From the NCBI RefSeq assembly GCF_900170025.1, contig NZ_FWEX01000006.1:2409625-2473624 (forward strand): a stretch of DNA of 64,000 nucleotides. The letters run 5' to 3'. Made by a program: the position numbers and the translations under genes. This stretch comes from Nitrospira sp. ND1 (GTDB taxonomy: Bacteria; Nitrospirota; Nitrospiria; Nitrospirales; Nitrospiraceae). How positions within the stretch are numbered: position 1 is the first letter of the stretch; the number at the start of each line of letters is the position of its first letter. Shown here piece after piece: positions 15,299 to 41,339 of the stretch. The notes under the pieces were generated by a model that worked only from the letters and a program-made list of their open reading frames with translations, was not told the DNA's origin and made no database searches.

Positions 15299-15581
15299 GC
15301 GGCCTCCTCTCGTCTCAGATGAATAGTCTGTGCACCTGCTGTCTCAGCAAAGCACATGCCCTTGCCGCAGGTGGGAACGCGGGGCGGGGATGGAGCTGAA
15401 CCGGCTGAAAGTGGGGCATTTGCGCGACTTCAGCAGACGGGATGATGGTGGCCTTTCGGGGCACTGGCGCATAATTCCTCACTGCCTCAGGAGGCGCTGA
15501 AGCTCAATGCGCCAGTTGCTGGTTCCATTGCAGGCTGAAGCGGGCATATTTTCGGGAACATGTCTTGCGTCGGACAGCGGT

Positions 15582-16667
15582 ATGCCGGTGTTGAAGAAAT
15601 CTGCCCTGGAGACCTACCTCAAGGTCCGGTTCGGGCCGAGCGCGGAATTGCTCGCCTATGGACCGATCGGCAAGGAGACGAGCGGCGCGCGGTATAAGCA
15701 ATACGGCTATGGCGCGCCTGTCCGGTTGACTTTCCGCCAGGGAGGCAAGACCCGCCGGGTGGTGTTGGGCACGATGAGTCCCGGTCCATTCGGCCATGAA
15801 CATCCGGCCGACCGGGCTCAGGCGATGTTGTGGGACTATGACTGCTACGGCCGCCTGCCGGGACATATCGACGCGCTGGATGTGGGGGCTTTCACCGCGC
15901 GGGGCGAATTGATGTCCGTGGCTACGGCCAAAGAGTTTTTCTTACTTACCGAATGGTCAGAGGGAGCGACCTATCACAAGGATCTCGAACGCATGGCAGG
16001 GGCGACCAAGCCGACTGCGCTCGACCGGAAGCGGACCGCAGCGTTGGCCATATATTTGGCCGACATTCACCGGGTGAAACAGACCGATCCACAACTCTAT
16101 CGGCGTCGGCTTCGAGAATTGCTCGGCCACGGTGAATGTATCATGGGCCTCACCGATAGTTACCCCGATCGGTTTGCCTTCATCACCGAAGACCTTCTGG
16201 CGCGAATCGAGGTGGCCTGCAATGTGTGGCGGTGGCGGCTGCGCGGCCGGCATGCGCGCCTGTCGCAGGTGCACGGGGATTTCCATCCCTGGAATGTGCT
16301 GTTTCGCCACGGGACGGATTTTTCCGTCTTGGACCGGTCACGCGGAGAGTGGGGTGAGCCGGCGGACGACGTGACGTCGATGTCGATCAACTATCTGTTC
16401 TTCTCACTGTGCCGGCATGGGAGGTTGAAGGGCGCGCTGGAAGTGGCCTTCCATTCATTCTGGGAGACCTACCTCGCCAGGAGCCGCGATCACGAGGTGT
16501 TGGAGGCGACGGCGCCGTTTTTCGCGTTTCGCGGGTTGGTGCTGGCGAGTCCGCTCTGGTATCCGAAACTCACGGTGACTGTGCGGCGTAAAATCTTCCG
16601 GTTCATCGAGAATGTGCTGGCGACGCCGCGCTTCGACCCGGCGGATGTGAACCGTTATTGCGACTAA
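15582..16667 (+). CDS. APH-fold phosphotransferase (aminoglycoside-phosphotransferase-like)
   Basis: About 361 residues with the kinase-like APH fold. The catalytic loop is VHGDFHPWNVLF near residue 230, and DRSRGEWGEPADDV about 20 residues later holds the metal-binding Asp. The N-lobe is short. The true substrate of environmental APH-fold proteins is generally unknown; antibiotic resistance should not be assumed. I place the start at the ATG at 15582; an ATG at 15507 lies 12 nt after TCAGGAGG and is possible. The APS-kinase-like gene starts within 9 nt of its stop. Confidence 0.85.
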   Translation: MPVLKKSALETYLKVRFGPSAELLAYGPIGKETSGARYKQYGYGAPVRLTFRQGGKTRRVVLGTMSPGPFGHEHPADRAQAMLWDYDCYGRLPGHIDALDVGAFTARGELMSVATAKEFFLLTEWSEGATYHKDLERMAGATKPTALDRKRTAALAIYLADIHRVKQTDPQLYRRRLRELLGHGECIMGLTDSYPDRFAFITEDLLARIEVACNVWRWRLRGRHARLSQVHGDFHPWNVLFRHGTDFSVLDRSRGEWGEPADDVTSMSINYLFFSLCRHGRLKGALEVAFHSFWETYLARSRDHEVLEATAPFFAFRGLVLASPLWYPKLTVTVRRKIFRFIENVLATPRFDPADVNRYCD

Positions 16668-19746: not shown

Positions 19747-20001
19747 TGTCCCCCGGATTCCCTTCCCCGCATCTCCATGTGGTCTCTTTCTCGAGCCTAC
19801 GGGCCTGTTCTTAACGAACCCGTCGCCTTTGCGCGCTACAAGAGTTCTTCGTAGAGCGGACGACCGCAGGCTGAGGTCTTATCTCCGCTACAAAATGGCA
19901 GCAGGAGCGACAGACTGCCGGTGCGATGGGGCGTAGAGTCTCGATGTGCGCGACACGCCGTTCATGTTCGACCGCATACCTGCAATCGAGAGGAGGTCAC
20001 G

Positions 20002-20319
20002 ATGAACATGCGTAGTGTAATGTCTATCACGCTGATCTGGATGGGAATGGTCGCCCCGGTTCTCGGATTTCAGACCGCCGCAGAGTTTCCAGTGAGCTGG
20101 GTCGAGCACGTGGATCTTCGCAATCACCTACTGACCTTCAAGACCGAGGACGGTCAGGTGCGGATGTTCCGGGTGGCCGATTCGGTGGCGATGCGGCGTG
20201 AGTGGCTGAGTAAAGGGGATCTCGTCAGCATCGAAGTCGATCTCGACGACCAGATCGTGAACATCGTGAAAGTGGATCGGAGATCCGAACCCAATCGACA
20301 GGTGTCACGTCGAAAATGA
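20002..20319 (+). CDS. Small secreted protein
   Basis: A 105-residue protein with a strong GAGGAGG before the ATG at 20002. Residues 1-22 form a signal peptide. The mature part (VSWVEHVDLRNHLLTFKTED and KGDLVSIEVDLDDQIVNIVK) alternates strands in a way that suggests a small beta barrel. Periplasmic; no named family recognised. It is convergent with the methyltransferase gene, 16 bp apart. Confidence 0.8.
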   Translation: MNMRSVMSITLIWMGMVAPVLGFQTAAEFPVSWVEHVDLRNHLLTFKTEDGQVRMFRVADSVAMRREWLSKGDLVSIEVDLDDQIVNIVKVDRRSEPNRQVSRRK

Positions 20320-20335: not shown

Positions 20336-21187
20336 CTAGGTTGTCCACCAGGAGGCGACCGGAGGATGGGGCCGGGGGCGCAATGGCCGCGGATGAACCC
20401 AACAGCCTTGTGAACGAAGCCCCGCCTGTCGGCAGTATCCGGCAGCGACATCCGCTTCATCTGTGCCTTGATTCACCATGAACAGGGTCCCCCCCGCCGC
20501 AAGATTGCGCGCGATGCTGGCAAAGAGCCGTTCCGGAGAAAACACCGTTAACGGGAGCCGCCAGGCTAGAACGGGCGTAGGCGTGACAAACGGAAACCAA
20601 GCCGTGATGACATCTACCTGTTCGTCCATCTCGCAGTAGTCGACGGTCACAAACGAGGTCTGCGGAAGATCCGCGACGTATCCGGCGGCAGCGTCGTAGC
20701 GGCTGTAGCCGGTTGGATAGAGGCGGTAACCCTCGACATCCACGCCAGTCAGTTTCGCCGGTCGGAAAAACCGGTGCAGCGTCTGCGCATACCAGAAGTT
20801 GGCACAGCCCACATCCGTGACAAGACCGCCCGTGGGAACGGGCCGGTCCGCTGCCGCCCAGGCCTGGTCCAGCAGATCGAGGTAGGCGTAGTTCGCCAGG
20901 GACGTGTGTCGTCCGTAGCGGGATTCGAAGCAGACACCATAGTGGGCCTGCAGGGATTCGATACAAGCCGACTGCCCGGTCTCCAGATCTGTGAGACGGC
21001 CGACCGGCACTTCATGGTAAGGCTTTCTCGACCAGCGTATCCGTTCCGAGAGGCCGAACCACAGTGCATGATAGAGCGACCGGCACCGTTGTCCGAGAGA
21101 ATAACGATGGTTGGGCGATGAAGGACTGGGGGCAGGAGCCTGAACCGGGCGTGGAGCATGGAAAGTGACTGGAGGAGTGGTCGGCAT
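20336..21187 (-). CDS. SAM-dependent methyltransferase-like protein
   Basis: A 283-residue protein. Motif I-like LVTDVGCANFWYAQTL lies near residues 122-137, followed by an acidic strand end LTGVDVEGYRLYP and by VTVDYCEMDEQVDVITAWFPF near residue 190, consistent with a Rossmann-fold class I methyltransferase. A helix and strand with NLAAGGTLFMVNQG near 232-245 match the usual post-motif III region. The N-terminal 50 residues are Pro-rich and may be mis-assigned, since no Shine-Dalgarno sequence precedes the ATG at 21187. Substrate unknown. Confidence 0.78.
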   Translation of the reverse strand: MPTTPPVTFHAPRPVQAPAPSPSSPNHRYSLGQRCRSLYHALWFGLSERIRWSRKPYHEVPVGRLTDLETGQSACIESLQAHYGVCFESRYGRHTSLANYAYLDLLDQAWAAADRPVPTGGLVTDVGCANFWYAQTLHRFFRPAKLTGVDVEGYRLYPTGYSRYDAAAGYVADLPQTSFVTVDYCEMDEQVDVITAWFPFVTPTPVLAWRLPLTVFSPERLFASIARNLAAGGTLFMVNQGTDEADVAAGYCRQAGLRSQGCWVHPRPLRPRPHPPVASWWTT

Positions 21188-21311: not shown

Positions 21312-22142
21312 TTAATCTGCGTGGTCAGACTGGCCGCCGGTCACGAAGTCATTGAGCAGCCGACAACCGGCAAAAAGCGTGGCCTCGTCATTTCTGATCC
21401 AGCGGCTGATGGCTCCCAGGTAGACAAGGCGGTCTGCGACCGCCTTGATATCTTCGGTGCCGGTCTCAGCTCCTGCCTTCGTAGGGTTCACAGGTTTCCC
21501 GTACTCGATCAGATAGTTCAATAATCGTCGTTCTGCTCCCTTGCCTACCTCCTCTATCAGCTGTCGAAGGAACGGCTGCCATTGCTGTCGGCCTTCAGCA
21601 AGAGCCGTTTCTCCGTAATGCAGGAAGAGTTTGCTCAAGTACGGATGGTTGCCCGTCCACTTCGCGATGGGTGCCGCCATATCATGGCCGACCAACCGGC
21701 GGAGTTCTCCATCGAGCAGGACAGAGAGTGGATAGAGGCGAATGGTCAACCCGGGTAACGTTGAAGGGTTGGCCAACAGTGCTCTCAACCGGTGACCGCC
21801 GGTGAGAATCATGTTCCGCGGGCGGGCAGTCGAAACTTGCTGGAGCAGCAGGTCGATCGTTTCGCCTGGCAGATGGTCGAGGTTGTCCAGAACGAGCATT
21901 GCGCCGGATATCTCATCTCCATTTGGCAGTGATGCTTGGCGGAAATCCACTTCGATCACCCGGTGGTGGGATAGCCCATCCAGCGAGCTTCGTACCAGCG
22001 ACGTCTTGCCGAGCTTCGGTCAGCCGATCACCGCCACGGATTCGCCGTCCGCTAGGCGTCCGCGCAGGTTTCGGACAAGCCCTTGGCGTCCGATGAACGC
22101 ATCGCCGGTGGCCGGCTGTGGAAAGAAGGGTGCGACGGACAT
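21312..22142 (-). pseudogene. P-loop (AAA/STAND-like) ATPase broken by an in-frame TGA in Walker A
   Basis: Reading from an ATG at 22142 gives an AAA-type ATPase N-terminus (AFIGRQGLVRNLRGRL), but codon 41, TGA at 22022-22020, interrupts the Walker A motif: VAVIG-stop-PKLGKTSLV. The frame then stays open to 21312 with Walker B AMLVLDNLDHL, a sensor-like segment NMILTGGHRLRALL and a small helical domain. One base change (TGA to CGA) would restore a normal protein of 276 residues. The downstream part could start at a GTG at 21959 but would lack the P-loop. Either a recent pseudogene, a sequencing error, or readthrough. Confidence 0.8.
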
Positions 22143-22215: not shown

Positions 22216-23106
22216 TTACTGAGGGCGCACAAACCGGAGCAGGCTCTCGCCTGCGGCCAGCCGCACAAATTTCCGCTTCAACTCATTCACTCGATCGAGA
22301 TAGAGCTTCGCACTGTGATCGCCGCACCGTTGTTGCGGGGCCAGTCGAAAGCCGCGGGCGACATATGCGTGGCCGGCGCCGGGTCCGCAGAGATGAATCA
22401 GTGCGGCCAGATCCTGCTTCTGCTGGAACGTGGGGCGAGGCCTTCGATGCGAACCGATGGCGTTCGCCACGGCGCGGTCGAGCAGGGCGGAGGTCAACTC
22501 GATGGCATGGCTCGGCAGGACGCGGCTATAGAAGGAATTGAACCAGCAGGAGTGAGGATCGTTCCAGGAGCCCTCCTGGACGACACGGTGGTCATGAATA
22601 CAGTACCGCTTTCCTTCCTGAAACGTCGCATCGGTGATCTGGAACATGCCGACGGCGCTCGACGCCGGACGATACAGTTCCAGCGGATTCCAGGTCAGTC
22701 GCCAGCGCCAGTAGGTGCGCGCGACCGGATTGCCTGCGCTTTCGACCTGCGCCAGCGCGGCCAGTAGATCCGGCGTCATGATGGCAGTGGAATGTGTGCG
22801 GAAGAGCGGACCGTACTCTTTCCATGTTTCATACGGATGTTTATCGAGCGCGTCGTCGAGCGCAAAGAACATTTCCGTCGGCTTGTGGATCGTGTGGTAG
22901 ACCCAGTTCACGCCCGCGCCAAGCAAGAGTAGGATAGCCAGGCTCACCACAAGCCTGGCCGTGAAGGGCAAGCGCCGCAGGGCGGTGAGCAGGGCTCGAT
23001 ATCTGTGTCGCCAGACGCGCCCGCGCCGACGAACGGCTACAATCGTGCTCCTGCGACCGCGCTTCCTGCGACGGATCACAGCCTGCGGATGCGAGCGGGA
23101 AGGCAT
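22216..23106 (-). CDS. Membrane-anchored SLT-like (lytic transglycosylase) protein
   Basis: A 296-residue protein with a very basic N-terminus (about 40 residues rich in Arg), one membrane segment (LVVSLAILLLLGAGVNWVYH, near residues 52-71) and a periplasmic domain. That domain has LAALAQVESAGNPVA near residue 118, with the catalytic-type Glu, and ASSAVGMFQITDATF near 150, both as in the goose-lysozyme-like SLT fold. Several Cys in the latter half may form disulfides. It should cleave or bind peptidoglycan. The ATG at 23106 is used; another ATG six codons upstream is possible. Confidence 0.85.
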   Translation of the reverse strand: MPSRSHPQAVIRRRKRGRRSTIVAVRRRGRVWRHRYRALLTALRRLPFTARLVVSLAILLLLGAGVNWVYHTIHKPTEMFFALDDALDKHPYETWKEYGPLFRTHSTAIMTPDLLAALAQVESAGNPVARTYWRWRLTWNPLELYRPASSAVGMFQITDATFQEGKRYCIHDHRVVQEGSWNDPHSCWFNSFYSRVLPSHAIELTSALLDRAVANAIGSHRRPRPTFQQKQDLAALIHLCGPGAGHAYVARGFRLAPQQRCGDHSAKLYLDRVNELKRKFVRLAAGESLLRFVRPQ

Positions 23107-23708
23107 GGGCTCACTATAACCCAAAAAGGGGAGTCGGAGGCCTGGTGATCCTCTTGCTGGCGAGGTGCGCAGCAGCGCACTCGCTTGGCCCTGGTTCTTC
23201 CTTACAAGTCAGCCGACTTCCCGAGCCCGTTGTGTGCGACAGCAGTACGGCTCGAAATCTATCATCTGGTGACAGCGAAGTATCTCGTCGGATACAGGCG
23301 CTGTTTCTTCTAAAACGGTTTCGACTTAATGAGCACCGATGATCTAATCGCTTTCATGCATGTCGGAGTAATGCCAACTTCGCATTCAGAAAGGCCGGAC
23401 TAATTTATCCGACTGCGATGGATCAGACCACTTTCGAAATCCAGTCGTGGAGGTAGTCACAGGAAGTATCGGCTTGCTGCGGGCACCTAATTAAAGTCAC
23501 AAACCAATTCTGTCCTGCCGAGCGATATGTTGGATATCACCTGGTCCGCCGTGAAGGCAGGCCTGGATCGCCTCTCCCCACTGTCCTCGTGCCACCAAAT
23601 TACATCGGTTTTTTCGAATGACGGACGCCGTATTATCGATTTGTAAGAAGAAGCCATGTGCCTATACAGTTTTTAGTAGGGCAGGTTGCACCGCAAAAGA
23701 GGCACACG
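23107..23708. other. Intergenic region, about 600 bp
   Basis: No supported gene. Base composition is closer to 50% GC than the neighbouring coding sequence. It lies between divergent genes and must contain promoters for the transglycosylase-like gene and for the receiver-protein cluster. Short open frames here have no Shine-Dalgarno sequence or recognisable protein character. Confidence 0.4.
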
Positions 23709-24194
23709 ATGCCGAAAGTTCTGATCGTCGATGATGACGCCGATGTCCGTGCGTGCCTCCAGGACGCCCTAGAAGCACGCGGCTTATCCTGCTGGGCCGT
23801 TGAAAACGGCCGGCACGCACTCGAATGTTTGCGGGCTGCTGAGGTGGATCTCATCGTGACCGACTATCGGATGCCCGCCATGGATGGATTGGAACTGTTG
23901 CGGCGTTTGACCGGTTCCGCCCTGGAAACGATCCCGGTCATTCTCCTGTCAGCGGATTCGGCAGCCAATCTGCGGCAGGAGGCCTTGCGCCTTGAGGCCT
24001 ATGCCGTGGTTCACAAACCGTTTAACACGCATGATCTCGTCGAGGTCATGTTTCGCGCGCTTCACCGAAACAGCAGCGATCCCGAGCAGGCGGCTGCCGC
24101 CACCCAACCCAATCAAGGAGGGAACTATGAAACAGAGGCAACCAAATACAAGCGCCATGGAGAAGGCGAACGGAACGGCTCCATCGGGCGTTGA
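23709..24194 (+). CDS. Single-domain response regulator (CheY-like receiver)
   Basis: A 161-residue protein: receiver domain at residues 1-120, then a polar tail of about 40 residues with no output domain. The acidic pocket is VDDDADV (residues 7-13), the phospho-acceptor is Asp52 (TDYRMP), the switch Ser is in LLSADS (residue 81), and Lys103 (HKPF) completes the site. GAGG precedes the ATG at 23709. No histidine kinase gene is adjacent, so its partner is elsewhere. It may control the following stress and respiration cluster through protein contacts. Its end overlaps the next gene by 68 nt. Confidence 0.92.
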   Translation: MPKVLIVDDDADVRACLQDALEARGLSCWAVENGRHALECLRAAEVDLIVTDYRMPAMDGLELLRRLTGSALETIPVILLSADSAANLRQEALRLEAYAVVHKPFNTHDLVEVMFRALHRNSSDPEQAAAATQPNQGGNYETEATKYKRHGEGERNGSIGR

Positions 24195-24327
24195 GGAGTC
24201 GCTTCGCAAAAGAATCGCCATTCGCGCATATGAGCTGTTTCGCGACCGCGGCAGCGAGCACGGGCATGCCGAGGACGACTGGCTCGAAGCGGAACGGCAG
24301 ATCAAAACCGAGATGCAACAAAGCTGA
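24127..24327 (+). CDS. DUF2934 family small protein
   Basis: A 66-residue protein with strong AAGGAGGG before the ATG at 24127. Residues 25-60, with IRKRIAIRAYELF-type character (seen as RKRIAIRAYELFRDRG) and AEDDWLEAERQI, match the DUF2934 signature, a short helical module of unknown function common in soil and nitrifying bacteria. It overlaps the 3' end of the receiver gene in another frame, which makes part of the receiver's tail a dual-coding region. Confidence 0.85.
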   Translation: MKQRQPNTSAMEKANGTAPSGVEESLRKRIAIRAYELFRDRGSEHGHAEDDWLEAERQIKTEMQQS

Positions 24328-24398
24328 AGCGCGTGGGTTGAGGCTGATCCTTATGACGGCCTGTCTGGCCATTGCTACATGATAAGGGAGGAGACGCG

Positions 24399-25517
24399 AT
24401 GATCATGAGCCGGTTCAACGCAGGTGAGAGATGGCTGGCGCTGCTCACGGCTGTCAGCATCATGTGGGCACCAGGAGTGCTCTTGGCCGGGGCGGTCGGC
24501 GACCGCCGAGACGAGGAACAAGTGGTGCAAGTATATCGGGACGTGGTACCGGCCACTGTCTTTCTCAGTTCTTCGTATGCTACGGGCAGCGGCCGCAATT
24601 CGTCGATTGGCTCCGGCTTCATCGTGGATGAGGCCGGGACGGTCCTGACGAACGCGCACGTGGTCGAGGGCGCACACACGGTGATGGCGAAATTGTACGA
24701 CGGGCAGCGGGTGCGTGCGGAGGTGCTCGGCGTCGATTCTTACAGCGATGTGGCCGTGCTCCGTCTGACCGGAGTCAATGGGAAAGTTCCCTTCGTGCAG
24801 CTCGGCACCTCCGACGCGCTCCGCATCGGTCAGAGAGCGTTGGTAATCGGCAACCCCTTCGGCCTGGGCTTCGGGCTCTCCACCGGCATCCTCAGCGGAT
24901 TAAATCGCCTTCCTCCCGGCGTCGCATTCAGCGAACCGAGGGTTCCGCTGATTCAGACCACCGCCCCTATCAATCCGGGCGACAGCGGCGGCCCGTTAAT
25001 GAACTCCGACGGCCGGGTCATCGGAATTACGACCGCCATGGCGTTGGGCACTCAGAATATCGGCTTTGCCGTGCCGATCGATCTCGCCAAAGAGGTCCTT
25101 GGAGAATTGAAGGCGAAGGGCAAAGTCAGTCGGCCCTGGCTAGGCGTCGGCGGCAAGTTCGTGACGGACGAGATCCGGGAATTATTCGTCCTGCCCCTCG
25201 CCGATGGGCTGCTGGTCGGTGAGGTCTTTCCCGGCAGTCCTGCAGCGGATGGGGGACTGCGAGCGGGGACCGTCGACGTGACGGTGGCCAGCGAGCCCTG
25301 GATGATGGGCGGAGACCTGATCGTCTCTCTGCAGGGCCGGTCGCTCCGGACGATGGAGGATTTCGTTTCGGCCTTCAAGAGCTTGAAGATCGGCGAGACG
25401 GTCTCGGTCGAATTCATCCGCGACCGGATGAGACGCAGGGCCTCCCTGGTCGTCGCCGAACGGCCCCAAGGCCTGTCGCACCCGACCTCCATGTCCATCG
25501 GCAAGGCGGCTCGGTGA
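24399..25517 (+). CDS. HtrA/DegP-type periplasmic serine protease
   Basis: A 372-residue protein with a signal peptide (to about residue 31, LLAGA). The trypsin-like domain has the triad His87 (LTNAHVVEG), Asp117 (YSDVAV) and Ser196 (NPGDSGGPL). One PDZ domain occupies about residues 260-355 (GLLVGEVFPGSPAADGGLR). The single PDZ and length fit the DegS/HhoA group. It should degrade damaged periplasmic proteins. A GGGAGGAG sequence precedes the ATG at 24399. The position before UspA and nrfHA suggests a stress operon. Confidence 0.94.
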   Translation: MIMSRFNAGERWLALLTAVSIMWAPGVLLAGAVGDRRDEEQVVQVYRDVVPATVFLSSSYATGSGRNSSIGSGFIVDEAGTVLTNAHVVEGAHTVMAKLYDGQRVRAEVLGVDSYSDVAVLRLTGVNGKVPFVQLGTSDALRIGQRALVIGNPFGLGFGLSTGILSGLNRLPPGVAFSEPRVPLIQTTAPINPGDSGGPLMNSDGRVIGITTAMALGTQNIGFAVPIDLAKEVLGELKAKGKVSRPWLGVGGKFVTDEIRELFVLPLADGLLVGEVFPGSPAADGGLRAGTVDVTVASEPWMMGGDLIVSLQGRSLRTMEDFVSAFKSLKIGETVSVEFIRDRMRRRASLVVAERPQGLSHPTSMSIGKAAR

Positions 25518-25620
25518 TTGGACGCAGAAGGCGTCGCCGGCGACTTCGGGCCGAACGCCATGACAGGTCGGCGAACAGTATGAGGCAACATATTTCACCA
25601 GATAGAAGGAAGGAACTGCG

Positions 25621-26487
25621 ATGACGAACCTGATAAACGGTGCCCCGACGCGAATCCGTCACATTTTTCATCCGACAGATTTTTCGGCCGCCAGTATGGC
25701 GGCTTTCGGGCATGCATTGAAGCTCACTCACCGCCTTCAGAGCGATCTGACGATCATGCATGTCGATCCGGCGCGGGCCGATCCCGATTTCGAGGATTTT
25801 CCGAGAGTACGGGAGACGCTCAGCCGATGGGGAATTCTCAAAGAGAGGGCCACTAAAGACGACCTTCTGGCGCTCGGTATCGGCGTGCGCAAAATTCGCG
25901 GGATGGCGGACCAACCAGTGACGTCGATTCTGCAATTGCTCAGCTGGAAACCGGCCGACTTGATGGTCTTGGCAACCTATCCCAAAGACGCCCTAAGTCA
26001 ATGGTTGTCCGAGGAGTCCGGAGAGACGCTGGCCCGCAAGTCCCGCACGATGACTCTGTTCGTGCCAGGCGAGAGTCCAGGATTCGTCTCATTGCATAAC
26101 GGAGTGGTGGCGCTGCAGCGGTTTCTCATCCCGATGGACCACCGCCCGGACGCGCAGGCTGCGGTGGACGCCGCCTGCGCGATTGCGTCGAGCCTGGGGA
26201 TCGATACGGCGATCTTCGAGCTGTTGTATGTAGGGGAACCGGCAGACGTGCCGCGCCCGCGGCTCCAACGTCGTGACGGCTGGATTTGGAAGCAAAGCGT
26301 CAGCACGGGCATCGTGGTAGAGGAAATTCTTGAGGCGGCCGAGCGCCAGCAGCCGGATCTGATCGTCATGGCGACCGAATGGAGAACGGGCTTTCTCGAC
26401 GCCTTGCGCGGTAGTACCACCGAACGAATTCTGCGCCGGACGATCTGTGCGCTGCTCGCGGTCCCTGTCTATGAGCCGCTCGCATGA
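25621..26487 (+). CDS. Universal stress protein, two UspA-like domains
   Basis: A 288-residue protein with an AAGGAAG-type ribosome site. The first domain (residues 10-145) starts RHIFHPTDFSAASMAAFGHA; the second (155-285) starts QRFLIPMDHRPDAQAAVDAA and ends GSTTERILRRTICALLAVPV. The first domain lacks the Gly-rich ATP loop, while the second keeps a partial one (ATEWRTGFLDALRGSTTERI). This suggests one degenerate and one partly intact nucleotide site. It lies between the HtrA and NrfHA genes on the same strand. Cytoplasmic; role inferred from the family. Confidence 0.88.
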   Translation: MTNLINGAPTRIRHIFHPTDFSAASMAAFGHALKLTHRLQSDLTIMHVDPARADPDFEDFPRVRETLSRWGILKERATKDDLLALGIGVRKIRGMADQPVTSILQLLSWKPADLMVLATYPKDALSQWLSEESGETLARKSRTMTLFVPGESPGFVSLHNGVVALQRFLIPMDHRPDAQAAVDAACAIASSLGIDTAIFELLYVGEPADVPRPRLQRRDGWIWKQSVSTGIVVEEILEAAERQQPDLIVMATEWRTGFLDALRGSTTERILRRTICALLAVPVYEPLA

Positions 26488-26521
26488 TCGCTATGTAGTC
26501 ATCTTGGGGAGAAGGGAGATC

Positions 26522-26782
26522 ATGGATATCATGCGCGTTGTACCGATCGTCTTCTTGATCATGGGGCTTTCCGCTTGTCAGGTTAGAACGCAGATGCCAT
26601 GGCAGCAAGTGGGAAAAACGGCCGACGAAACGAAAGCGGACGAAGCCGAGTGCTTGCGGCAGGAGGGAGAGCGTTCAGCAGTCGCGGCGTTTAAGAGGGC
26701 GGCGGATTGCATGGAATCCAAAGGATATCAGCGCGACCAGTGGAATCGGTTTGCTTGCTGCCGGCGGTTGCTGGGCAGTTGA
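26522..26782 (+). CDS. Small lipoprotein
   Basis: An 86-residue protein whose first 19 residues (VVPIVFLIMGLSAC) form a lipoprotein signal with the lipobox GLSAC, so Cys19 should be lipidated. GGGAG precedes the ATG. The mature part is charged, with four more Cys, including a pair in the C-terminal FACCRR, and resembles no family I know. It precedes nrfH by 39 nt on the same strand and might be an accessory, but this is only a positional inference. Confidence 0.75.
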   Translation: MDIMRVVPIVFLIMGLSACQVRTQMPWQQVGKTADETKADEAECLRQEGERSAVAAFKRAADCMESKGYQRDQWNRFACCRRLLGS

Positions 26783-26821
26783 GGCGGTGCACGCACTCCC
26801 GTGAATGGAGGGGTTTCTCAC

Positions 26822-27280
26822 ATGAGCTGGATGTTCAGCCGCACAGTGTTCGGATGGTTTTTCGCCGTGATGGTCGGCGCCTTCGTGGGGCTCGGCCTGT
26901 TTACCTTTTGGTATGCGCGCGGGGCGTCCTACCTCACGGATGACCCGCGGGCCTGCATCAATTGCCACGTCATGAGGACGCAATATGACGGCTGGGTGAA
27001 GTCGAGCCATCGAATGGGGGCCGTCTGCAACGATTGCCACACGCCGGAAGGACTTATCCCGAAGTACGCGTCCAAGGCGTTCAATGGCTTCCTCCACGCG
27101 GCGGCCTTTACCACCGGAGATTTTCCGGAGGTGATTCAGATCAAGCCGCATATGCGGGCGATCACGGAACGGGCCTGCCTGAAATGTCACGCGGACATTG
27201 TTCAGGCCATCAATGTGTCGGACGACCCCGCGGGGCGCCTGTCCTGTGTCGGCTGTCATCGCGATGTCGGACATCGATAA
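26822..27280 (+). CDS. nrfH: NrfH, tetrahaem NapC/NirT-family quinol dehydrogenase
   Basis: A 152-residue membrane-anchored cytochrome. One N-terminal helix (residues 8-30) is followed by four haem motifs: CINCH (45-49), CNDCH (69-73), CLKCH (119-123) and CVGCH (142-146). Met51, right after the first motif, is the expected unusual haem-1 ligand in the family. It oxidises quinol in the membrane and passes electrons to NrfA. GAGG precedes the ATG at 26822. nrfA follows 11 nt later, as in other NrfHA operons. Confidence 0.95.
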   Translation: MSWMFSRTVFGWFFAVMVGAFVGLGLFTFWYARGASYLTDDPRACINCHVMRTQYDGWVKSSHRMGAVCNDCHTPEGLIPKYASKAFNGFLHAAAFTTGDFPEVIQIKPHMRAITERACLKCHADIVQAINVSDDPAGRLSCVGCHRDVGHR

Positions 27281-27291
27281 GGGAGGTCATC

Positions 27292-28665
27292 ATGAATCGA
27301 ACGGGTCGCGGGTCGGTAAAACTGGTGGTCCTGGCGGTGCTGGCCGCCGGGGCGGCGCTGGCGATCACCGCGCTGCTGGTTAATATCTTCGAGCGCCACC
27401 AGGAGGCCAAGAACGTATTCTTCCGGGTGGTTGAGTTAACCGACCAGACCGAAGACCCCGCTGAATGGGGGAAAAACTTTCCCTTTCAGTTCGACGCGTA
27501 CCGGCGCACCGTGGATCAGGTCCGCACGCGCTTCGGCGGCAGCGAAGCGGTGCCGCGCGAGCCCACCTCGGCCGATCCCCGTTCAGTGGTCGCCCAGTCG
27601 AGGATCGAAGAAGACCCGCGACTCAAAACGATCTGGGCCGGGTATGCCTTCGCGCACGACTTTCGTGAGGAACGCGGCCATGCCTTCATGTTGGAGGATC
27701 AAATCTATACGGGACGGCAAACGGTCGTGAAGCAGCCCGGCACCTGCCTCCAGTGCCATTCGTCGGCCTACACGGCGATGATGAAGCTCGGCGAAGGGGA
27801 TCTCCCAAAAGGGTTTGAGAGCATGAACCGGCTGCCTTACGCGGAGGCCAGAAAACTGGTGAAGCACCCGGTCACCTGCTTGGATTGCCATGTGCCGGAC
27901 ACGATGCAGCTTCGCATCACGAGACCTGCCTTTCTCGAAGGCATCCGTGCCGTGAAGGAACGCGAGGGCATTCGCAATTTCGATCCCAATACGATGGCCA
28001 CCAGGCAGGAGATGCGCTCGTTTGTCTGCGGGCAGTGCCACGTCGAGTACTACTTCAAAGGGCCGGAGAAGCGGCTGACGTTTCCATGGGCCAACGGGTT
28101 GCGCGCCGATGAGATCCTTGCCTATTACGAGCAGACCGGATTCAAGGATTGGACCCACGCGGATACCGGCGCGTCGACGCTCAAAGCGCAGCATCCAGAG
28201 TTCGAGTTGTGGAGCCAAGGCGTGCATGCCCGCTCCGGCGTTTCCTGCGCCGACTGCCATATGCCTTACAAACGCGAAGGCGCGATGAAGATCAGCGATC
28301 ACCACGTGAGGAGCCCGCTGCTCAACATTAACCGCGCCTGCCAGACCTGCCATCGCTGGCCGGAAGCCGAATTGAAGGAGCGCGTCGAAACGATCCAGCA
28401 CCGGACATTCGAACTGCGCAACCGTGCGATGGATGCCGTCGTGGCGTTAATCGGTGATTTAAAAAGAGCGCGGGCACGCGGCCAGAACGCTGCCCTGTCA
28501 GAGGCGCAAACGTTGCAGCGTCAAGCGCAGTTCTTGCTGGATTTCGTCGAGGCGGAAAATTCCACCGGTTTCCACGCGCCCCAGGAAGCGGCGCGCGTCC
28601 TGGGCCAATCCATCGATTTGGCACGGCGCGGGCAACTGGCTCTTCGTGACCGGGCAGGGCCTTAG
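27292..28665 (+). CDS. nrfA: NrfA, pentahaem cytochrome c nitrite reductase
   Basis: A 457-residue periplasmic enzyme reducing nitrite to ammonium with six electrons. Residues 8-31 are a hydrophobic signal or anchor. Five haem motifs are visible: CLQCH (152-156), CLDCH (196-200), CGQCH (246-250), CADCH (319-323) and CQTCH (350-354). CHVEYYF holds the active-site Tyr253 and KAQHPE the active-site His301. The first, catalytic haem has His at the lysine position of the usual CxxCK, so this is the CxxCH subtype. GGGAGG precedes the ATG. It should form a complex with NrfH. Confidence 0.95.
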   Translation: MNRTGRGSVKLVVLAVLAAGAALAITALLVNIFERHQEAKNVFFRVVELTDQTEDPAEWGKNFPFQFDAYRRTVDQVRTRFGGSEAVPREPTSADPRSVVAQSRIEEDPRLKTIWAGYAFAHDFREERGHAFMLEDQIYTGRQTVVKQPGTCLQCHSSAYTAMMKLGEGDLPKGFESMNRLPYAEARKLVKHPVTCLDCHVPDTMQLRITRPAFLEGIRAVKEREGIRNFDPNTMATRQEMRSFVCGQCHVEYYFKGPEKRLTFPWANGLRADEILAYYEQTGFKDWTHADTGASTLKAQHPEFELWSQGVHARSGVSCADCHMPYKREGAMKISDHHVRSPLLNINRACQTCHRWPEAELKERVETIQHRTFELRNRAMDAVVALIGDLKRARARGQNAALSEAQTLQRQAQFLLDFVEAENSTGFHAPQEAARVLGQSIDLARRGQLALRDRAGP

Positions 28666-28681
28666 TGAGGGGGCATTCATC

Positions 28682-30028
28682 ATGACCGACTTGCAAGCTG
28701 CTCGCACGCTGATCGCGGGGTCGCTCGGTTTCCACATTCTGTTCGCCGTGATCGGGATCGGTCTGCCGCTCATGATGGTGCTCGCCGAATGGCGTTGGTA
28801 CAGAACCGGCGATGCGGTATCGTTGGCGCTCGCCCGGCGATGGGCCAAGGGCACGGCGATGCTTTTCGCCATCGGGGCGGTCTCCGGCACCATCCTGTCG
28901 TTTCAGCTCGGGCTGCTATGGCCGGAATTCATGCGGTGGGCAGGACCGATCGTCGGCTTGGCCTTTTCACTCGAAGGCGCGGCGTTCTTCACGGAAGCGG
29001 TCTTTCTCGGCCTCTATCTCTACGGCTGGGGCCTGCTGAGCCCGGCCGCGCATCTGGCCTCCGGCCTGGCCGTCGCCGTCAGCGGCGTCACCTCGGGCAT
29101 CTTCATCGTACTGGCCAACGGGTGGATGAATACGCCGCGAGGGTTCCGTCTGCTGCAGGGGCAACCGACCGACATCGATCCGGTCGCGGCCCTGTTCAGC
29201 CCATCCGGTCTGGCGCAAGTGCCCCATATGATCCTGGGCGCCTACGCTGCGACCGGATTCGCCGTCGCTGGGATTCACGCCTGGCAGCTCCTTTGGCACC
29301 CGGACGATCCCTTCCATCGGCGAGCCTTGACGATTGCGCTGTGGTTAGGCGGGATTAGCGCCCTGCTGCAACCGCTCAGCGGCGACCTGCTTGCCAAGGT
29401 GGTGGCCGTCCATCAACCCGCCAAGCTGGCGGCGTTCGAAGGACAGTTCGCCACGGAAGCGGGCGCGCCGTTCCGCTTGGGTGGCATTGTGGACCTTGAT
29501 CGTAGGCGGCTCGACTACGCGATCGAAATCCCATATGCGCTCAGCCTGATGCTGTACCTCGATCCGACGGCGACCGTCACGGGGCTGGACAGCGTGCCTC
29601 GGGATCAGTGGCCGCCGGTGGCCATCGCGCGCGGCGCGTTCCAAGTGATGATCCTCTGCGGTGGGGCTATGACCTTCGTGACATTGTGGGCAGGGTGGCA
29701 GGGGTGGCGTTACAGGGCGGTTGCGCGGTCCCGTCTTTTTCTCAAGGCCGTGGTCCTGGCCGGTCCGCTGGGTTTTGTCGCCACGGAAGCCGGATGGATT
29801 GCCGCCGAGGTGGGCCGACAGCCGTGGATTATTACGGGCGTCATGCGGACGGCGGCCGCGGTCACGCCTATGCCGGGCCTGCTGGTTCCGCTCGTCTTTT
29901 TCGGCGCGCTTTACCTCATGCTGGCCGCCATCGTCTTATGGATACTCCACCACCATATCGCTGCCGGGTCTCCTGTCGACTCTACGGTCCTCAAGCCGCC
30001 TGTCGAAAGGACGGTTTATGAGTCTTGA
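28682..30028 (+). CDS. cydA: Cytochrome bd-type quinol oxidase subunit I, short Q-loop
   Basis: A 448-residue membrane protein with about nine helices. Expected haem ligands are His18 (GFHILF), His182 (VPHMILGAY) and Met323 (FQVMIL). The proton-pathway acidic residues Glu98 and Glu105 are in SLEGAAFFTEAVF, and the Q-loop Lys and Glu are in QPAKLAAFEG. GRQPW near the end is diagnostic. It lacks the long Q-loop insert of E. coli CydA (522 residues) and so resembles CIO-type bd oxidases. It oxidises quinol and reduces oxygen. GAGGGGG precedes the ATG; cydB overlaps its end. Confidence 0.95.
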   Translation: MTDLQAARTLIAGSLGFHILFAVIGIGLPLMMVLAEWRWYRTGDAVSLALARRWAKGTAMLFAIGAVSGTILSFQLGLLWPEFMRWAGPIVGLAFSLEGAAFFTEAVFLGLYLYGWGLLSPAAHLASGLAVAVSGVTSGIFIVLANGWMNTPRGFRLLQGQPTDIDPVAALFSPSGLAQVPHMILGAYAATGFAVAGIHAWQLLWHPDDPFHRRALTIALWLGGISALLQPLSGDLLAKVVAVHQPAKLAAFEGQFATEAGAPFRLGGIVDLDRRRLDYAIEIPYALSLMLYLDPTATVTGLDSVPRDQWPPVAIARGAFQVMILCGGAMTFVTLWAGWQGWRYRAVARSRLFLKAVVLAGPLGFVATEAGWIAAEVGRQPWIITGVMRTAAAVTPMPGLLVPLVFFGALYLMLAAIVLWILHHHIAAGSPVDSTVLKPPVERTVYES

Positions 30029-31034
30029 GCTGATCATCGCCGGTGTTCTCATGACGACCCTGACGGGCTATGTCCTCACGGGCGTGGCCGACTTTGGAGC
30101 CGGCGCTTGGTACCTTGCGGCCCGCGGCGGGCGCGCGCCGGCACAGCGGGCGTTCATCGACCGTGCGTTGGCGCCGATCTGGGAGGCTAACCACGTCTGG
30201 CTGATCGTCGTGCTCGTGCTGCTCTTCGCGGGCTTTCCGTCGGCCTTCACAGTGATCATGACGAGCCTTCATATTCCGCTCACCTTGCTGCTGATCGGCA
30301 TCGTGCTGCGCGGCGCTTCCTTCGCGTTTCAGCATTCTGACGTCCCGTTCGACGAGCGCCTCCCTTGGGGAAGTCTGTTCGCGGTGGGGAGCCTGGTGGC
30401 CCCGTTCTGGCTCGGCGTCGTGCTGGGAAGCGTGGCTGCAGGCCTGCCGCCCTCTTCGGGAAGTTTCCTCACCCGCTATGTCGAGCCCTGGCTCGCGCCG
30501 TTTCCCCTCGCCGTCGGGGTCTTCACGACCGTCCTCGCCCTGTACTTGGCCGCCGCCTATTTGACGGTGGAGGCTCAGGATGGCGAGCTGCAAGTCGAGT
30601 TTCGTCTGCGCGCGATCGCTGCCGGGATCGTCGCGGCAGGCTTGGAAGAGACGCTGTTGCTGCTTTCACGAGAAGCCGCTCCGCTCGTGTGGGGCGGCCT
30701 GACCGGCACGGTCTGGGGCGTGCTGGCCCAGTTCACGACCGCAGTTGCCGGTCTCACGGGCATTGCATGCCTCTGGTTGAAGCGGTTTCGTTGGGCGCGG
30801 ATCTGCATCGCCGGACAGGTCACGATGACGCTTTGGGCGTGGGTCCTCGCGCAGTGGCCCTATCTCGTGCCGCCACACCTCACGATCTACAATGCCGCCG
30901 CGCCGGCGCCGGCGCTCCGGGCGGTCCTCTATGCTCTCGGAGGCGGAGCGGTCCTGGTGTTTCCCGCTCTGTGGTATCTCTTCCGTGTTTTCAAACAGCA
31001 GGCTGTGCTGGGCGGCGATGCGCCGAAGGGTTGA
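30018..31034 (+). CDS. cydB: Cytochrome bd-type quinol oxidase subunit II
   Basis: A 338-residue protein with about eight to nine hydrophobic helices. GYVLTGVADFGAGAW and PIWEANHVWLIVVLVLLFAGFP are the conserved early CydB segments, and SFAFQHSDV is the third. It packs against CydA. The ATG at 30018 lies inside the cydA stop region (11-nt overlap) with AAAGGA upstream, so translation is coupled. No cydX-like small gene was seen after it; a flavoprotein gene follows 13 nt later. Confidence 0.95.
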   Translation: MSLELIIAGVLMTTLTGYVLTGVADFGAGAWYLAARGGRAPAQRAFIDRALAPIWEANHVWLIVVLVLLFAGFPSAFTVIMTSLHIPLTLLLIGIVLRGASFAFQHSDVPFDERLPWGSLFAVGSLVAPFWLGVVLGSVAAGLPPSSGSFLTRYVEPWLAPFPLAVGVFTTVLALYLAAAYLTVEAQDGELQVEFRLRAIAAGIVAAGLEETLLLLSREAAPLVWGGLTGTVWGVLAQFTTAVAGLTGIACLWLKRFRWARICIAGQVTMTLWAWVLAQWPYLVPPHLTIYNAAAPAPALRAVLYALGGGAVLVFPALWYLFRVFKQQAVLGGDAPKG

Positions 31035-31047
31035 AAGGAGTACGTCT

Positions 31048-32448
31048 ATGACACGTGACTATGAGTATGATCTGCTCTGCATCGGCAGCGGCCCGGCGGG
31101 GCAACGGGCGGCGGTACAGGCCGCGAAGCTTGGGAAGCGCGCCGCCGTAATCGAACGGGGCCATCGCCTGGGCGGCGTTTGCGTCGATACGGGAACGATC
31201 CCCAGCAAGACGTTTCGGGAAGCGGTGCTGTCACTGAACGGCCATGCCTGTCCCGCGTGCAGTAAGGTGCGCCCTGGCGCGTCCGCTCGTCCTCCGGCGC
31301 AGGCCCTGCTGGCCCGCGTGGAGGCGGTGGAACAACGCCAAGCGGACGTCATCGGCGGGCAGCTTCGGCGCAACGACGTGGCCGTGCTTTCGGGGGAAGC
31401 GCGCTTTCACGATTCTCATACAGTGCTTATCGAGTCATCCGACCGCATGATTACCGTTACCGCCGCCAATATATTGATTGCGGTGGGCACCGTACCCGCT
31501 GCGCCACCGGGGGCCGCAGTGGAGCCGAACCTGGTGGTGACCAGCGACGAATTACTGGGGCTGACGACGTTGCCGCGCAAGCTCGCGGTCGTCGGCGCGG
31601 GGGTCATCGGGATCGAGTATGCATCCATGTTCGCCGCGCTGGGGATCGAGGTGACTGTCATTGATCAGCGCGAGCACCCCCTGGAGTTCCTCGATCGTGA
31701 GATCGTGGACGCGCTGTTCCATCAATTGCGGAACGTGGACGTGACGTTCAGGCTCGGCGAAACCGTAGAACGGTTGGAAATTCTCAATGGGCCCCCGCGG
31801 CGGGTCGCACTGTTGCTGGAATCAGGTAAGCGATTGGTGTCCGAGCTGGTCCTCTATTGCGCCGGCCGGCAGGGTGCGACGGGGCGGTTGAATCTCGCCG
31901 CCGCCGGTCTGAAGGCGGACGACCGCGGGCGTCTCGCGGTCGATCGGGACTACCGCACGGAGGTGCCGCATATTTTTGCCGCCGGGGACGTGATCGGGTT
32001 TCCCAGCCTGGCGACCACGTCGGCCGAGCAAGGGCGGCTCGCCGCTTGCGCCGCCTTCGGCGTGGAAGCCGACCCGATGACCGCGCATTTTCCCATCGGC
32101 ATTTATTCCATTCCGGAGATTTCGATGGTCGGCGCGCCGGAACAGGAGCTGACACGGCGCAAGGTGCCCTATGAAGCCGGCACGGCCCGCTACCGGGAGA
32201 TCGCACGGGGACAGATTCTCGGAGACGACAGCGGCCTGCTCAAAATGCTGGTGCATCGGGAAGACCGGCGGCTGCTGGGAGTTCACATCGTCGGAACGGG
32301 CGCGACCGAATTGATTCACATCGGACAGGCCGTCTTGGGGCTTCAGGGCGGTCTGGACTACTTTTTGACGACGGCGATGAACTATCCGACGCTGGCGGAA
32401 TGTTACAAAGTGGCGGCGCTGGATGCCTTCAACAAGCTGTCGGCCTAG
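31048..32448 (+). CDS. sthA: Soluble pyridine-nucleotide transhydrogenase-like flavoprotein (SthA family)
   Basis: A 466-residue member of the lipoamide-dehydrogenase fold. FAD binding is GSGPAGQRAA (residues 11-20), the NAD(P) site is VVGAGVIGIEYASMFAALG near 180, and the second FAD motif is IFAAGDVIG near 310. The redox motif CxxxxC of the fold is reduced to a single Cys (GGVCVDTGTIPSK); the second position is Thr, as in SthA rather than in disulfide reductases. It should shuttle hydride between NADPH and NAD+. GAAAGGAG precedes the ATG. Being in the cydAB operon, it may balance reductant during stress. Confidence 0.9.
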   Translation: MTRDYEYDLLCIGSGPAGQRAAVQAAKLGKRAAVIERGHRLGGVCVDTGTIPSKTFREAVLSLNGHACPACSKVRPGASARPPAQALLARVEAVEQRQADVIGGQLRRNDVAVLSGEARFHDSHTVLIESSDRMITVTAANILIAVGTVPAAPPGAAVEPNLVVTSDELLGLTTLPRKLAVVGAGVIGIEYASMFAALGIEVTVIDQREHPLEFLDREIVDALFHQLRNVDVTFRLGETVERLEILNGPPRRVALLLESGKRLVSELVLYCAGRQGATGRLNLAAAGLKADDRGRLAVDRDYRTEVPHIFAAGDVIGFPSLATTSAEQGRLAACAAFGVEADPMTAHFPIGIYSIPEISMVGAPEQELTRRKVPYEAGTARYREIARGQILGDDSGLLKMLVHREDRRLLGVHIVGTGATELIHIGQAVLGLQGGLDYFLTTAMNYPTLAECYKVAALDAFNKLSA

Positions 32449-32477
32449 CCGACGCGACCAAGTCGGAAGGAGATGGG

Positions 32478-33023
32478 ATGTACGACCGAGTGACCGATTC
32501 AGTGAGACAAGTCTTCGCGTGGATGGAACGTTTGGATCGCTGGGGCTATATTACAGTTGGGTTCAGCCTGCTGGTCATCAGCGTCCTGCTGTTCGTCCAT
32601 AGCTGGGCGCAGTTCGCTACGGCCTATCGCACGGAGCCCTTCCTCCTTATCAGCTTGACCCTCGTCAATCAGCTTCTACTCGTCATCATTCTTCTGGAGC
32701 TGTTCCGCACCATCGTGCGGTTCCTGGAAACCGATACCTTGCGGGTGGAGCCGTACCTGGCGGTCGGCATCATCGCGTGCATACGGCGCATGCTCACGGC
32801 CAGCGCGGAGTTGGGAGACCTCAGGCACGTACCGGAGGATTTTTTCGAGCGGTATCTGAAAGACATGCTGATGAACGCCGGATTGGTGATGGTGCTGATC
32901 GGCAGCATCTTCGTGGTGCGGGCTCGTCCGGTACGGTCAGATCAGTACGACGGGATGGCTTCAGATGATCCCCTGCCCGACCTAGCCTCATCCGCTGGTC
33001 GCTCCGACTTCCCCACCCGTTAG
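32478..33023 (+). CDS. PsiE-like membrane protein
   Basis: A 181-residue protein with four hydrophobic segments, near residues 24-45, 57-80, 90-108 and 130-150, and the segment LVIILLELFRTIVRFLETDT followed by RVEPYLAVGIIACIRRML, which matches the phosphate-starvation-inducible PsiE family. The biochemical role is unknown. GGAAGGAG precedes the ATG at 32478, 29 nt after the SthA stop, so it is probably the last gene of the operon. Confidence 0.85.
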   Translation: MYDRVTDSVRQVFAWMERLDRWGYITVGFSLLVISVLLFVHSWAQFATAYRTEPFLLISLTLVNQLLLVIILLELFRTIVRFLETDTLRVEPYLAVGIIACIRRMLTASAELGDLRHVPEDFFERYLKDMLMNAGLVMVLIGSIFVVRARPVRSDQYDGMASDDPLPDLASSAGRSDFPTR

Positions 33024-33056
33024 GCGATACCCCGCTCGCCGAAGGCTCAGGCGCCG

Positions 33057-33956
33057 TCAGGACAAAATTTCCTGACGCGCCGCTTCTACGATGGCGAGCA
33101 CCGCAGGGTGCTTGAGCCGACGCTCGACCGTGATGGCGTAGAATCGCTGTTTCACGGAATCCAACCGTCCCACCACCTGGACGCGATACTGGCGGCAGAT
33201 TTCTTTTTCCATGACGCTGGAGCCGGGAAAGAGGCCATAGCCAGTCTGGCCGAATGCCTTCAACGTCGCGCTGTCTTCGAATTCTCCCATGACAGTCGGA
33301 TGGATGCCTCGTCGAACCAGCCACTCGTCCACTAAGCGGCGCAGCATGGCATTCGGCGTGGGCAGCAGCACCGGGGCACCGCTGAGGGATTTCGGGAAGG
33401 CGCGCCGATATTTTGCCGCCTGATTCGCCGTCGAGAAGAACGTCACCCCCGATTCCCCCATGACGTGATTGTAGGTCTGCACCTTGATGCTGGGCGGCGC
33501 CGGCGTATCGGAAATCACAAGATCGAGGCCATGAATCGCCAGCTCGGCCAGCAAATGGTCCAGCTTGTTCTCCCAGCAGAGGATACGCGTCGGATGGGCC
33601 GTCTTCAACGCCGACTTCAACAGCTGCGAGGTTAGGAGCTTCGGCACTGCGTCGGCGATGCCGACGACCAGCCGTAGGGGCCGCCCGCTGCCGTGTCCTT
33701 TCACCGTGCTGATCAGATCCCGCCCGAGCGAGAAAATGTCCTCCGCATAACGAAACACGACGCGGCCCATTTCGGTCATGACCAGGTGGCGGCCCGAGCG
33801 GGCGAACAGTTTCTCTCCGAGTACGCCTTCCAACGCTCGAATTTGACCGCTAATGGTCGGCTGCGCCAGGCGAAGTTCTTCGCAGGCTCGGCTCACGCTG
33901 CCGTTCTTGGCGACCGCCCAGAAGTACAACAGGTGATGATAGTTCAGCCATTCCAT
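33057..33956 (-). CDS. LysR-family regulator, NhaR-like
   Basis: A 299-residue protein. The N-terminal winged helix-turn-helix begins MEWLNYHHLLYFWAVAKNGS and includes AQPTISGQIRALEGVLGEKL, very like NhaR. The rest is a LysR substrate-binding domain (RLVVGIADAVPKLLTSQLL, about residues 95-295). NhaR-type proteins activate sodium or stress genes. It is convergent with the psiE-like gene and its 5' end faces a small secreted-protein gene 128 bp away. The regulated genes are not shown by the sequence. Confidence 0.92.
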   Translation of the reverse strand: MEWLNYHHLLYFWAVAKNGSVSRACEELRLAQPTISGQIRALEGVLGEKLFARSGRHLVMTEMGRVVFRYAEDIFSLGRDLISTVKGHGSGRPLRLVVGIADAVPKLLTSQLLKSALKTAHPTRILCWENKLDHLLAELAIHGLDLVISDTPAPPSIKVQTYNHVMGESGVTFFSTANQAAKYRRAFPKSLSGAPVLLPTPNAMLRRLVDEWLVRRGIHPTVMGEFEDSATLKAFGQTGYGLFPGSSVMEKEICRQYRVQVVGRLDSVKQRFYAITVERRLKHPAVLAIVEAARQEILS

Positions 33957-34084
33957 GCGGCGGAAGTATACATCGGGTTATTCGATGGATGCATCTCAAT
34001 TTATCTATTTTTCAGGCCGCCCCATCATTGCTATGGTTGCGCATGACGAACGCGTTAACCTCAAAGCCGTCCAGGAGGTGCACG

Positions 34085-34408
34085 ATGATGCAGCGAGTTC
34101 AACGGGCGATCGGGACATTTTTCTTCTTGACTACCTGCTTCCTGGCTCCGGCGGAGGCGATGGAGTCGGAGTATCGTCCCTACGAGCCGGTCGTACGCGT
34201 TCATCCTCCTCCCCGGTACGTGCCGATGGGCCGCACGACGCCGCAGGTGGTGCCGCCGGAAGCAATGCGCAACGCCGCCGGGCCGGTCTATCGAACCGGG
34301 GACGGTTCACACCCGCCTTTCGCCCCTCATGTTCAGGCAGATCACAGACCGGGCGAGATTCAAAAACCCCATACCGGAGGAGCCGGGCTTCCGATCTGGC
34401 AGTGGTAA
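34085..34408 (+). CDS. Small secreted Pro-rich protein
   Basis: A 107-residue protein with AGGAGGT 6 nt before the ATG at 34085. Residues 1-26 are a signal peptide (FFFLTTCFLAPAEA). The mature part is rich in Pro, His and Gly with no domain (RVHPPPRYVPMGRTTPQVVP). Likely an unfolded periplasmic or surface protein; function unknown. The NhaR-like gene is divergent upstream and could control it. Confidence 0.7.
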   Translation: MMQRVQRAIGTFFFLTTCFLAPAEAMESEYRPYEPVVRVHPPPRYVPMGRTTPQVVPPEAMRNAAGPVYRTGDGSHPPFAPHVQADHRPGEIQKPHTGGAGLPIWQW

Positions 34409-34480
34409 GCATGACTGAGCGTCCACCTCACATACCCGCTAGGAGCTCCACTACAGACTACGACCAATCGGCAGGTTTGT

Positions 34481-34936
34481 TCAGCCGGGCCCTGTGGGCA
34501 ATAGCTCTTTCACCATCTTCCGGTGCGGGATGCCGGCGTCGATGAAGGGTTCGTCGACTACGTGGAACCCGGCCCGTTCATAAAATCCAAGCGCATGGAT
34601 CTGTGCGGACAGGGTAACGCGCGGGAGCCCTTGCCTAACCGCCAGATCCAGCAGTGTCTGGAGAAGGTCCCGTCCGACGCCGCGCCCGCGCCAGTACTTG
34701 AGCACCGCCATTCTGCCGATGGTGCCATTCCGTTGCATGCGCGCCGTGCCGATGGCCTCTCCTCGGTCATTCCATGCCAGCACATGGGCGCAAGATGAAT
34801 CGAGCCCGTCCCACTCCAGTTCTACCGGCACTCCCTGCTCGTGGATAAACACCGTTTCGCGAATCGCCCTGATGGCCGACTCTGTGGTGGCCCAGTCGGT
34901 AAGTTCTACCCGTCCTGTGTTGTGATGTTGCGGCAT
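34481..34936 (-). CDS. GNAT-family N-acetyltransferase
   Basis: A 151-residue protein. The first half has IRETVFIHEQGVPVELEWDG, found in ElaA/YjdJ-type acetyltransferases, followed by the acetyl-CoA loop IGRMAVLKYWRGRGVGRDLL near residues 73-92 (R-G-x-G-x-G/A pattern). The end HALGFYERAGFHVVDEPF fits the GNAT fold. Acceptor unknown. It is convergent with the small secreted-protein gene, with 72 bp between stops. Confidence 0.88.
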   Translation of the reverse strand: MPQHHNTGRVELTDWATTESAIRAIRETVFIHEQGVPVELEWDGLDSSCAHVLAWNDRGEAIGTARMQRNGTIGRMAVLKYWRGRGVGRDLLQTLLDLAVRQGLPRVTLSAQIHALGFYERAGFHVVDEPFIDAGIPHRKMVKELLPTGPG

Positions 34937-36508: not shown

Positions 36509-36562
36509 GCAGGCTGTTGACAAAGGCTGCCAGCGGCGTTCTCTCGGCGTTCAACAGCCTGC
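36509..36562. repeat. Inverted repeat after the UspA gene, related to the 46.8-kb element
   Basis: GCAGGCTGTTGA (36509-36520) is repeated inversely at 36551-36562, a perfect 12-bp stem with a 30-nt loop. The loop holds GCCAGCGGCGTTCTC (36529-36543), which recurs exactly at 46826-46840. No T-run follows, so it is not a classical terminator, though it could still slow transcription. It looks like a short copy of a dispersed repeat. Confidence 0.65.
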
Positions 36563-36614
36563 GGCAGATTCTGGGAACGTCCGTGGCTCTGCTGGTTCCT
36601 CCCGGGGCAACTAA

Positions 36615-36802
36615 CCCGCATTATTCATGACGGTTCGTCGTGAAATCGCCGAGTCACGTGGCGAGACCGGCGCGCGGAGCCGGGAGGACCCGAGGCGTAC
36701 TCGTGCAGTACGTTGAGGGTCCGAGGGGTGAGCCCGCCGGCCGAAGGCCCGTCGCAGCAGTGAATCGGCGATTGCAGCAGAAGTGCTCATGAATAATGCG
36801 GG
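36615..36802. repeat. MITE-like element with 16-bp terminal inverted repeats and CTAA flanks
   Basis: CCCGCATTATTCATGA (36615-36630) is repeated inversely at 36787-36802. CTAA flanks both ends (36611-36614 and 36803-36806), a likely 4-bp target duplication. A second, imperfect inverted repeat lies just inside (near 36646-36659 and 36757-36771), so the whole 188 bp could fold into a long hairpin. It carries no gene. It sits about 160 bp upstream of the RND operon and could affect its expression. Confidence 0.78.
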
Positions 36803-36837
36803 CTAAGACCGCTGTGGCATTTCACCCCGCTCTCAGG

Positions 36838-41322: not shown

Positions 41323-41339
41323 AGGGAGTTCACGAGACC

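Follow-up and report, generated by a model that had tools for sequence, protein, structure and literature searches.

The closest described counterparts of the locus analysed here are bacterial pseudogenes made by a single nonsense mutation, the P-loop ATPases of the Pfam families AAA_22 (PF13401) and nSTAND1 (PF20703), and the Hirsh-type readthrough of UGA by tRNA-Trp. The wild-type tRNA-Trp of Escherichia coli carries the pair U11-G24. A24 in tRNA-Trp (G24A) is the Hirsh suppressor base and enables UGA readthrough, according to the available part of PMC13092985.

Nitrospira sp. strain ND1, a nitrite-oxidising bacterium, was isolated from activated sludge and its genome was assembled as a SPAdes draft from Illumina MiSeq reads, as given in the available part of PMC5767232, in whose main text no word beginning with "pseudogene" occurred. 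The genome comprises 4,454,928 bases in six contigs, and the window, the whole stretch of 64,000 nucleotides that was analysed, lies on the contig of 3,463,908 bases. It contains a compact P-loop ATPase gene with one internal TGA (Table 1). With single-nonsense pseudogenes this locus shares the one stop, the otherwise intact frame, the intact orthologues and the absence of the gene from relatives; no difference from them was seen in the sequence of the ND1 ATPase. The P-loop, a Walker B-like strand and weak profile matches, in ND1 and in the orthologues, are shared with the AAA_22 and nSTAND1 ATPases, but AAA_22 alone exceeded its cut-off, for L003 only, the sole orthologue with scores given, and the C-terminal half of the Nitrospira ATPase had no family match. 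A24 in the ND1 tRNA-Trp and a C after the UGA are common to this locus and Hirsh-type readthrough, whereas ND1 provides no evidence of readthrough and the homologues carry no tryptophan at codon 41.

Table 1. Coordinates of the ATPase gene, its motifs, its neighbours and the tRNA-Trp gene of ND1 (window positions unless a locus is named)
Feature	Coordinates	Strand	Remark
Compact P-loop (AAA_22/STAND-like) ATPase gene, one internal TGA	21312..22142	-	276 codons + terminal TAA
In-frame TGA, codon 41	22020..22022	-	glycine in 27/27 other aligned family members
Walker A motif G-stop-PKLGKT, codons 40-47	22002..22025	-	by the usual motif pattern
Walker B-like MLVLDN, codons 82-87	21882..21899	-	by the usual motif pattern
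Upstream neighbour, lytic transglycosylase (Pfam SLT)	22216..23124	-	matched in 28/29 genus genomes
Downstream neighbour, 283 aa, no Pfam/NCBIfam/PADLOC match	20336..21187	-	matched in 23/29 genus genomes
ND1 tRNA-Trp	L061 98-172	-	U11-A24

Translation of positions 22142-21312 on the reverse strand gave MSVAPFFPQ...VAVIG-stop-PKLGKTSLV...AMLVLDNLD...HAD-stop. The sole internal stop, the TGA at 22022-22020, has 40 sense codons before it and 235 after it, and is located between VAVIG and PKLGKTSLV in an otherwise normal P-loop. The preliminary description had placed a TGA at reverse-strand codon 41 inside Walker A, with the frame intact on both sides and Walker B kept; its coordinates and wording proved exact on translation, no second stop was present, and MLVLDN and the remaining frame were intact. 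The Walker A position of the stop is nothing special in itself, because 71 of the 275 sense codons of the ND1 gene are one step from a stop. The site lies outside any homopolymer, and the base 3' of the UGA is C, a leaky context for this stop.

The ATPase was found in six of the 29 genus genomes, ND1 included, and the other five species all had an open frame. These five orthologues aligned over residues 1 to 269-276 with 65-79% protein identity and all carried a glycine codon at position 41; the near full-length match indicates that the frame is a real gene and no chance ORF. Across the order, 38 of 196 genomes had an ATPase match (43 rows). The alignment comprised 28 rows, ND1 and 27 others, five of the latter from the genus. 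A comparison of orthologues had been named as a check at the outset, and once run it showed an uninterrupted frame with glycine at codon 41 in all 27 others. The 15 match rows outside the alignment were fragments, weak matches or rows without a fetched locus; 14 of them had no reported stop, and one, a fragment in G168 covering profile positions 237-272 and not codon 41, contained a TGA. Judged from the alignment, the codon-41 stop is specific to ND1 among the aligned rows.

A recurrence of the stop was considered for a TGA flagged in L099 and rejected, this being the terminal stop of the L099 gene itself. At G168:C10:49875-50259, three short segments of the ATPase family are crowded together; they overlap, their order is partly disturbed, and one contains a TGA. 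They look like a decayed second copy, a full copy being present on C20. In G086 (L085 550-2310), the ATPase frame was open upstream through another gene, presumably of the YqgE/AlgH type, to form a frame of 587 codons, which may reflect either a fusion or a lost stop.

Estimates of omega on the ND1 branch were 0.167 for the whole ATPase gene (95% interval 0.10-0.26) and 0.133 behind the stop (0.07-0.24). The whole-gene values for G026 (0.28) and G023 (0.25) were both above that of ND1, and those behind the stop position were 0.30 and 0.23, respectively. Codons 1-40 alone gave an uninformative 0.84 for ND1 (interval 0.17-9.5). Pairwise dN/dS of ND1 against the five orthologues was 0.21-0.29, compared to 0.17-0.37 among the intact genes, and the ND1 frame, aligned with them, had neither a further stop nor an internal gap. 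On these estimates, the ND1 frame behind the stop evolved under purifying selection, and the low omega of the branch indicates an ATPase that was functional for nearly its whole history. Had it been dead for much of the ND1 branch, omega would have moved towards 1, and indels or extra stops would probably have accumulated. From the low omega and the lack of further decay it follows that the stop arose very recently, is an error of the consensus, or is tolerated. A gene that is still translated would show the same purifying selection downstream of the stop.

The ATPase gene is flanked by the transglycosylase gene and the 283-aa gene, followed by an alpha-amylase-family gene, in ND1, G023, G026 and G017; the transglycosylase gene of G026 is truncated at a contig end, and the 283-aa gene of G017 gave a fragment match only. 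In G001, G012, G019, G020, G025 and G028, the transglycosylase and 283-aa genes were found with no ATPase between them, at a spacing of about 60-75 bases (about 260 in G001). No trace of the gene was detected by blastn of the ATPase and its spacers against these six genomes; the search returned one 35-base match (E 0.026) in G020, in the spacer behind the ATPase gene. The transglycosylase by itself did not resolve the clade in a tree, and a four-gene tree was used, in which the six gene-less relatives and ND1 formed one clade (100/100; G020 represented by 36% of the columns). Since all six lack the gene between the same neighbours, the ATPase is dispensable in the ND1 clade, whichever way it was lost. 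Within this clade, the flanking genes paired ND1 with the gene-less G012 (98/99), which would imply two or more losses, or else an exchange by recombination; a single shared loss was not rejected on the same tree (p-AU 0.09). Horizontal replacement of the ATPase alone was rejected, its dS to G023 (0.63) and G026 (0.56) being no more extreme than those of the four flanking genes (0.48-0.98); the segment as a whole may have been exchanged at an earlier date.

The reading that we favour, with a probability of roughly three in four, is that a recent nonsense mutation inactivated an accessory and dispensable P-loop ATPase gene, which would make it an ordinary pseudogene. The gene would have been held under selection in the ND1 lineage until recently, and a single nonsense substitution in Walker A would just have inactivated it. 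Translation would then end after 40 residues with no ATP-binding protein made, and the last 235 codons would form an intact fossil, too young for decay. The ATPase would have been lost for lack of need, the base being taken as real; a real loss is favoured because the two neighbours enclose no ATPase in six other members of the clade. Also counted in favour of the pseudogene are the lack of other deep stops among the conserved G023 ORFs of the window, the negative searches for tRNA-Sec, SelB and a UCA tRNA, and a similar lone stop in the neighbouring APH-like gene of G012. Of the three possibilities named in the preliminary description, the newly dead gene is the best supported, by the lack of decay beyond the stop and by the six gene-less relatives. 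The sequencing error ranks second and the readthrough third, and for a functional readthrough there is little support. As a recent pseudogene the locus matters little, as one more accessory gene on its way out in Nitrospira, which plays an important part in nitrification. At this single locus, related genomes show both the missing gene and a new point knock-out. Should the UGA turn out to be read through, the locus would offer a natural test of UGA leakiness in bacteria with an A24 tRNA-Trp.

An artefact of sequencing, assembly or culture, with a sense codon in the actual gene, or with the stop present as a minority variant or one that arose in culture, is unlikely. The position of codon 41 outside a homopolymer argues against it, and so would the rarity of consensus substitution errors in Illumina assemblies if the depth was normal. 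The lone substitution in a frame otherwise without decay and the origin of the genome as a SPAdes draft of MiSeq reads (PMC5767232, available part) would fit an artefact. In the window, 31 non-overlapping ORFs of G023 were conserved, and four of them contained a stop in ND1: that of the ATPase lay deep in the frame, and three were at residue 3-6, in ORFs that we read as having over-long starts. The absence of any other deep stop among these 31 speaks against an artefact as well. The comparison with G026 gave a stop in ND1 for four of 14 ORFs, namely two of the over-long-start type, the ATPase, and a frame at 19882-20274 with the stop at residue 51 of 133. The last was taken as a doubtful, probably non-coding frame, G023 supporting another strand there. 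These comparisons of conserved ORFs with G023 and G026 ruled out a window of generally poor quality or widespread decay. Low-level readthrough of the UGA, with tryptophan the likeliest residue inserted, to give the full-length ATPase is quite improbable. The P-loop would still read G-x4-GKT, since codon 41 falls on its first variable position, selection downstream of the stop is undiminished, and both the leaky C after the UGA and A24 in the tRNA-Trp would promote it, but glycine in all 27 aligned others gives no indication that tryptophan works at this position. The ND1 tRNA-Trp, by its ARAGORN structure with positions counted by hand, has G9, the pair U11-A24 and an anticodon stem of the normal 5 bp; a 4-bp stem was looked for in it and not found, which also counts against readthrough. 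An identical copy of all 75 bases of this tRNA-Trp was present in 15 of the 28 other genus genomes (four further matches at 99%, one partial, eight genomes without a match); leaky UGA is therefore possible across much of the genus and does not represent an adaptation specific to ND1. Of 34 hand-picked window genes, 13 end in TGA, so that UGA termination must work well, and the RNA fold of the 81 bases around codon 41 was unremarkable, not stronger than its shuffles (z -0.77). It is highly improbable that the leak of a naturally suppressor-like tRNA-Trp (U11-A24) in Nitrospira makes the P-loop stop a throttle and not a knock-out, with ND1 still producing some full-length ATPase that carries tryptophan at the first variable Walker A residue.

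Selenocysteine insertion or another dedicated recoding of UGA would also fit an in-frame TGA with selection behind it, but its probability is negligible and for the ND1 assembly it is already largely refuted. Searches of the ND1 genome for tRNA-Sec and SelB gave no match above the cut-off, and the same searches were positive in five and two of 14 control genomes, respectively. Thirteen weak tRNA-Sec matches coincided with ordinary ND1 tRNA genes, the weak SelB matches are presumably other translation GTPases, ARAGORN assigned an anticodon to every one of the 44 ND1 tRNA genes and in no case UCA, and the homologues have glycine, not cysteine, at codon 41. Genes for tRNA-Ile(GAU) and tRNA-Ala(UGC) were absent among these 44, perhaps through rRNA operon sequence missing from the assembly. 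That the functional product is a shorter protein of 215 aa from GTG 21959 has a probability close to nil; the ORF from this codon is open, but the protein would be devoid of the P-loop that the 27 other aligned members keep, and no ribosome-binding site was recognised by eye before the GTG.

The ND1 ATPase, read with X at the stop, gave weak Pfam matches to AAA_22, nSTAND1 and AAA_16, none of which reached its cut-off; AAA_22 scored 24.7 bits against a cut-off of 27, which the intact orthologue L003 from G023 exceeded with 32.2 bits. NCBIfam profiles gave nothing near any cut-off. A PDB sequence search returned weak matches to ATPases, among them a VCP-like protein (best E 2e-4) and RuvB, as well as to an ABC transporter. 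The AlphaFold2 model of the five orthologues was poor (mean pLDDT 55.5), and the 50 PDB structure matches listed, with query TM-scores no higher than 0.35, were for the most part AAA+ proteins of a generic kind; neither result was used for the interpretation. Conserved PVNP and SRWIR...DEATLFAGCRLLN motifs were present in the C-terminal region, which is perhaps a winged helix, and our guess for the protein would be a putative nucleotide-dependent regulator. PADLOC gave one weak match of the ATPase, to PDC-S01, with E 4e-4 in ND1 and also in four of the five orthologues (best 9e-5); a defence-gene label was rejected, this match being too weak and the two adjacent genes having no PADLOC match. 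No relatives of the ATPase were detected in the viral contigs searched, and a literature search for Nitrospira with STAND, ATPase and Walker A found no paper.

Elsewhere in the window, positions 23200-34490 and 36530-43930 had no matching ORF in a 60-kb stretch of G023 and were syntenic on both sides; they may have been inserted in ND1 or lost from G023. In G012, the relative that pairs with ND1 on the four-gene tree, the counterpart of window positions 15507-16667 (L160 1950-3107) is an APH-like gene near the ATPase locus with a lone TAG at codon 51, which is tyrosine in the eight other genomes used for comparison, among them ND1.
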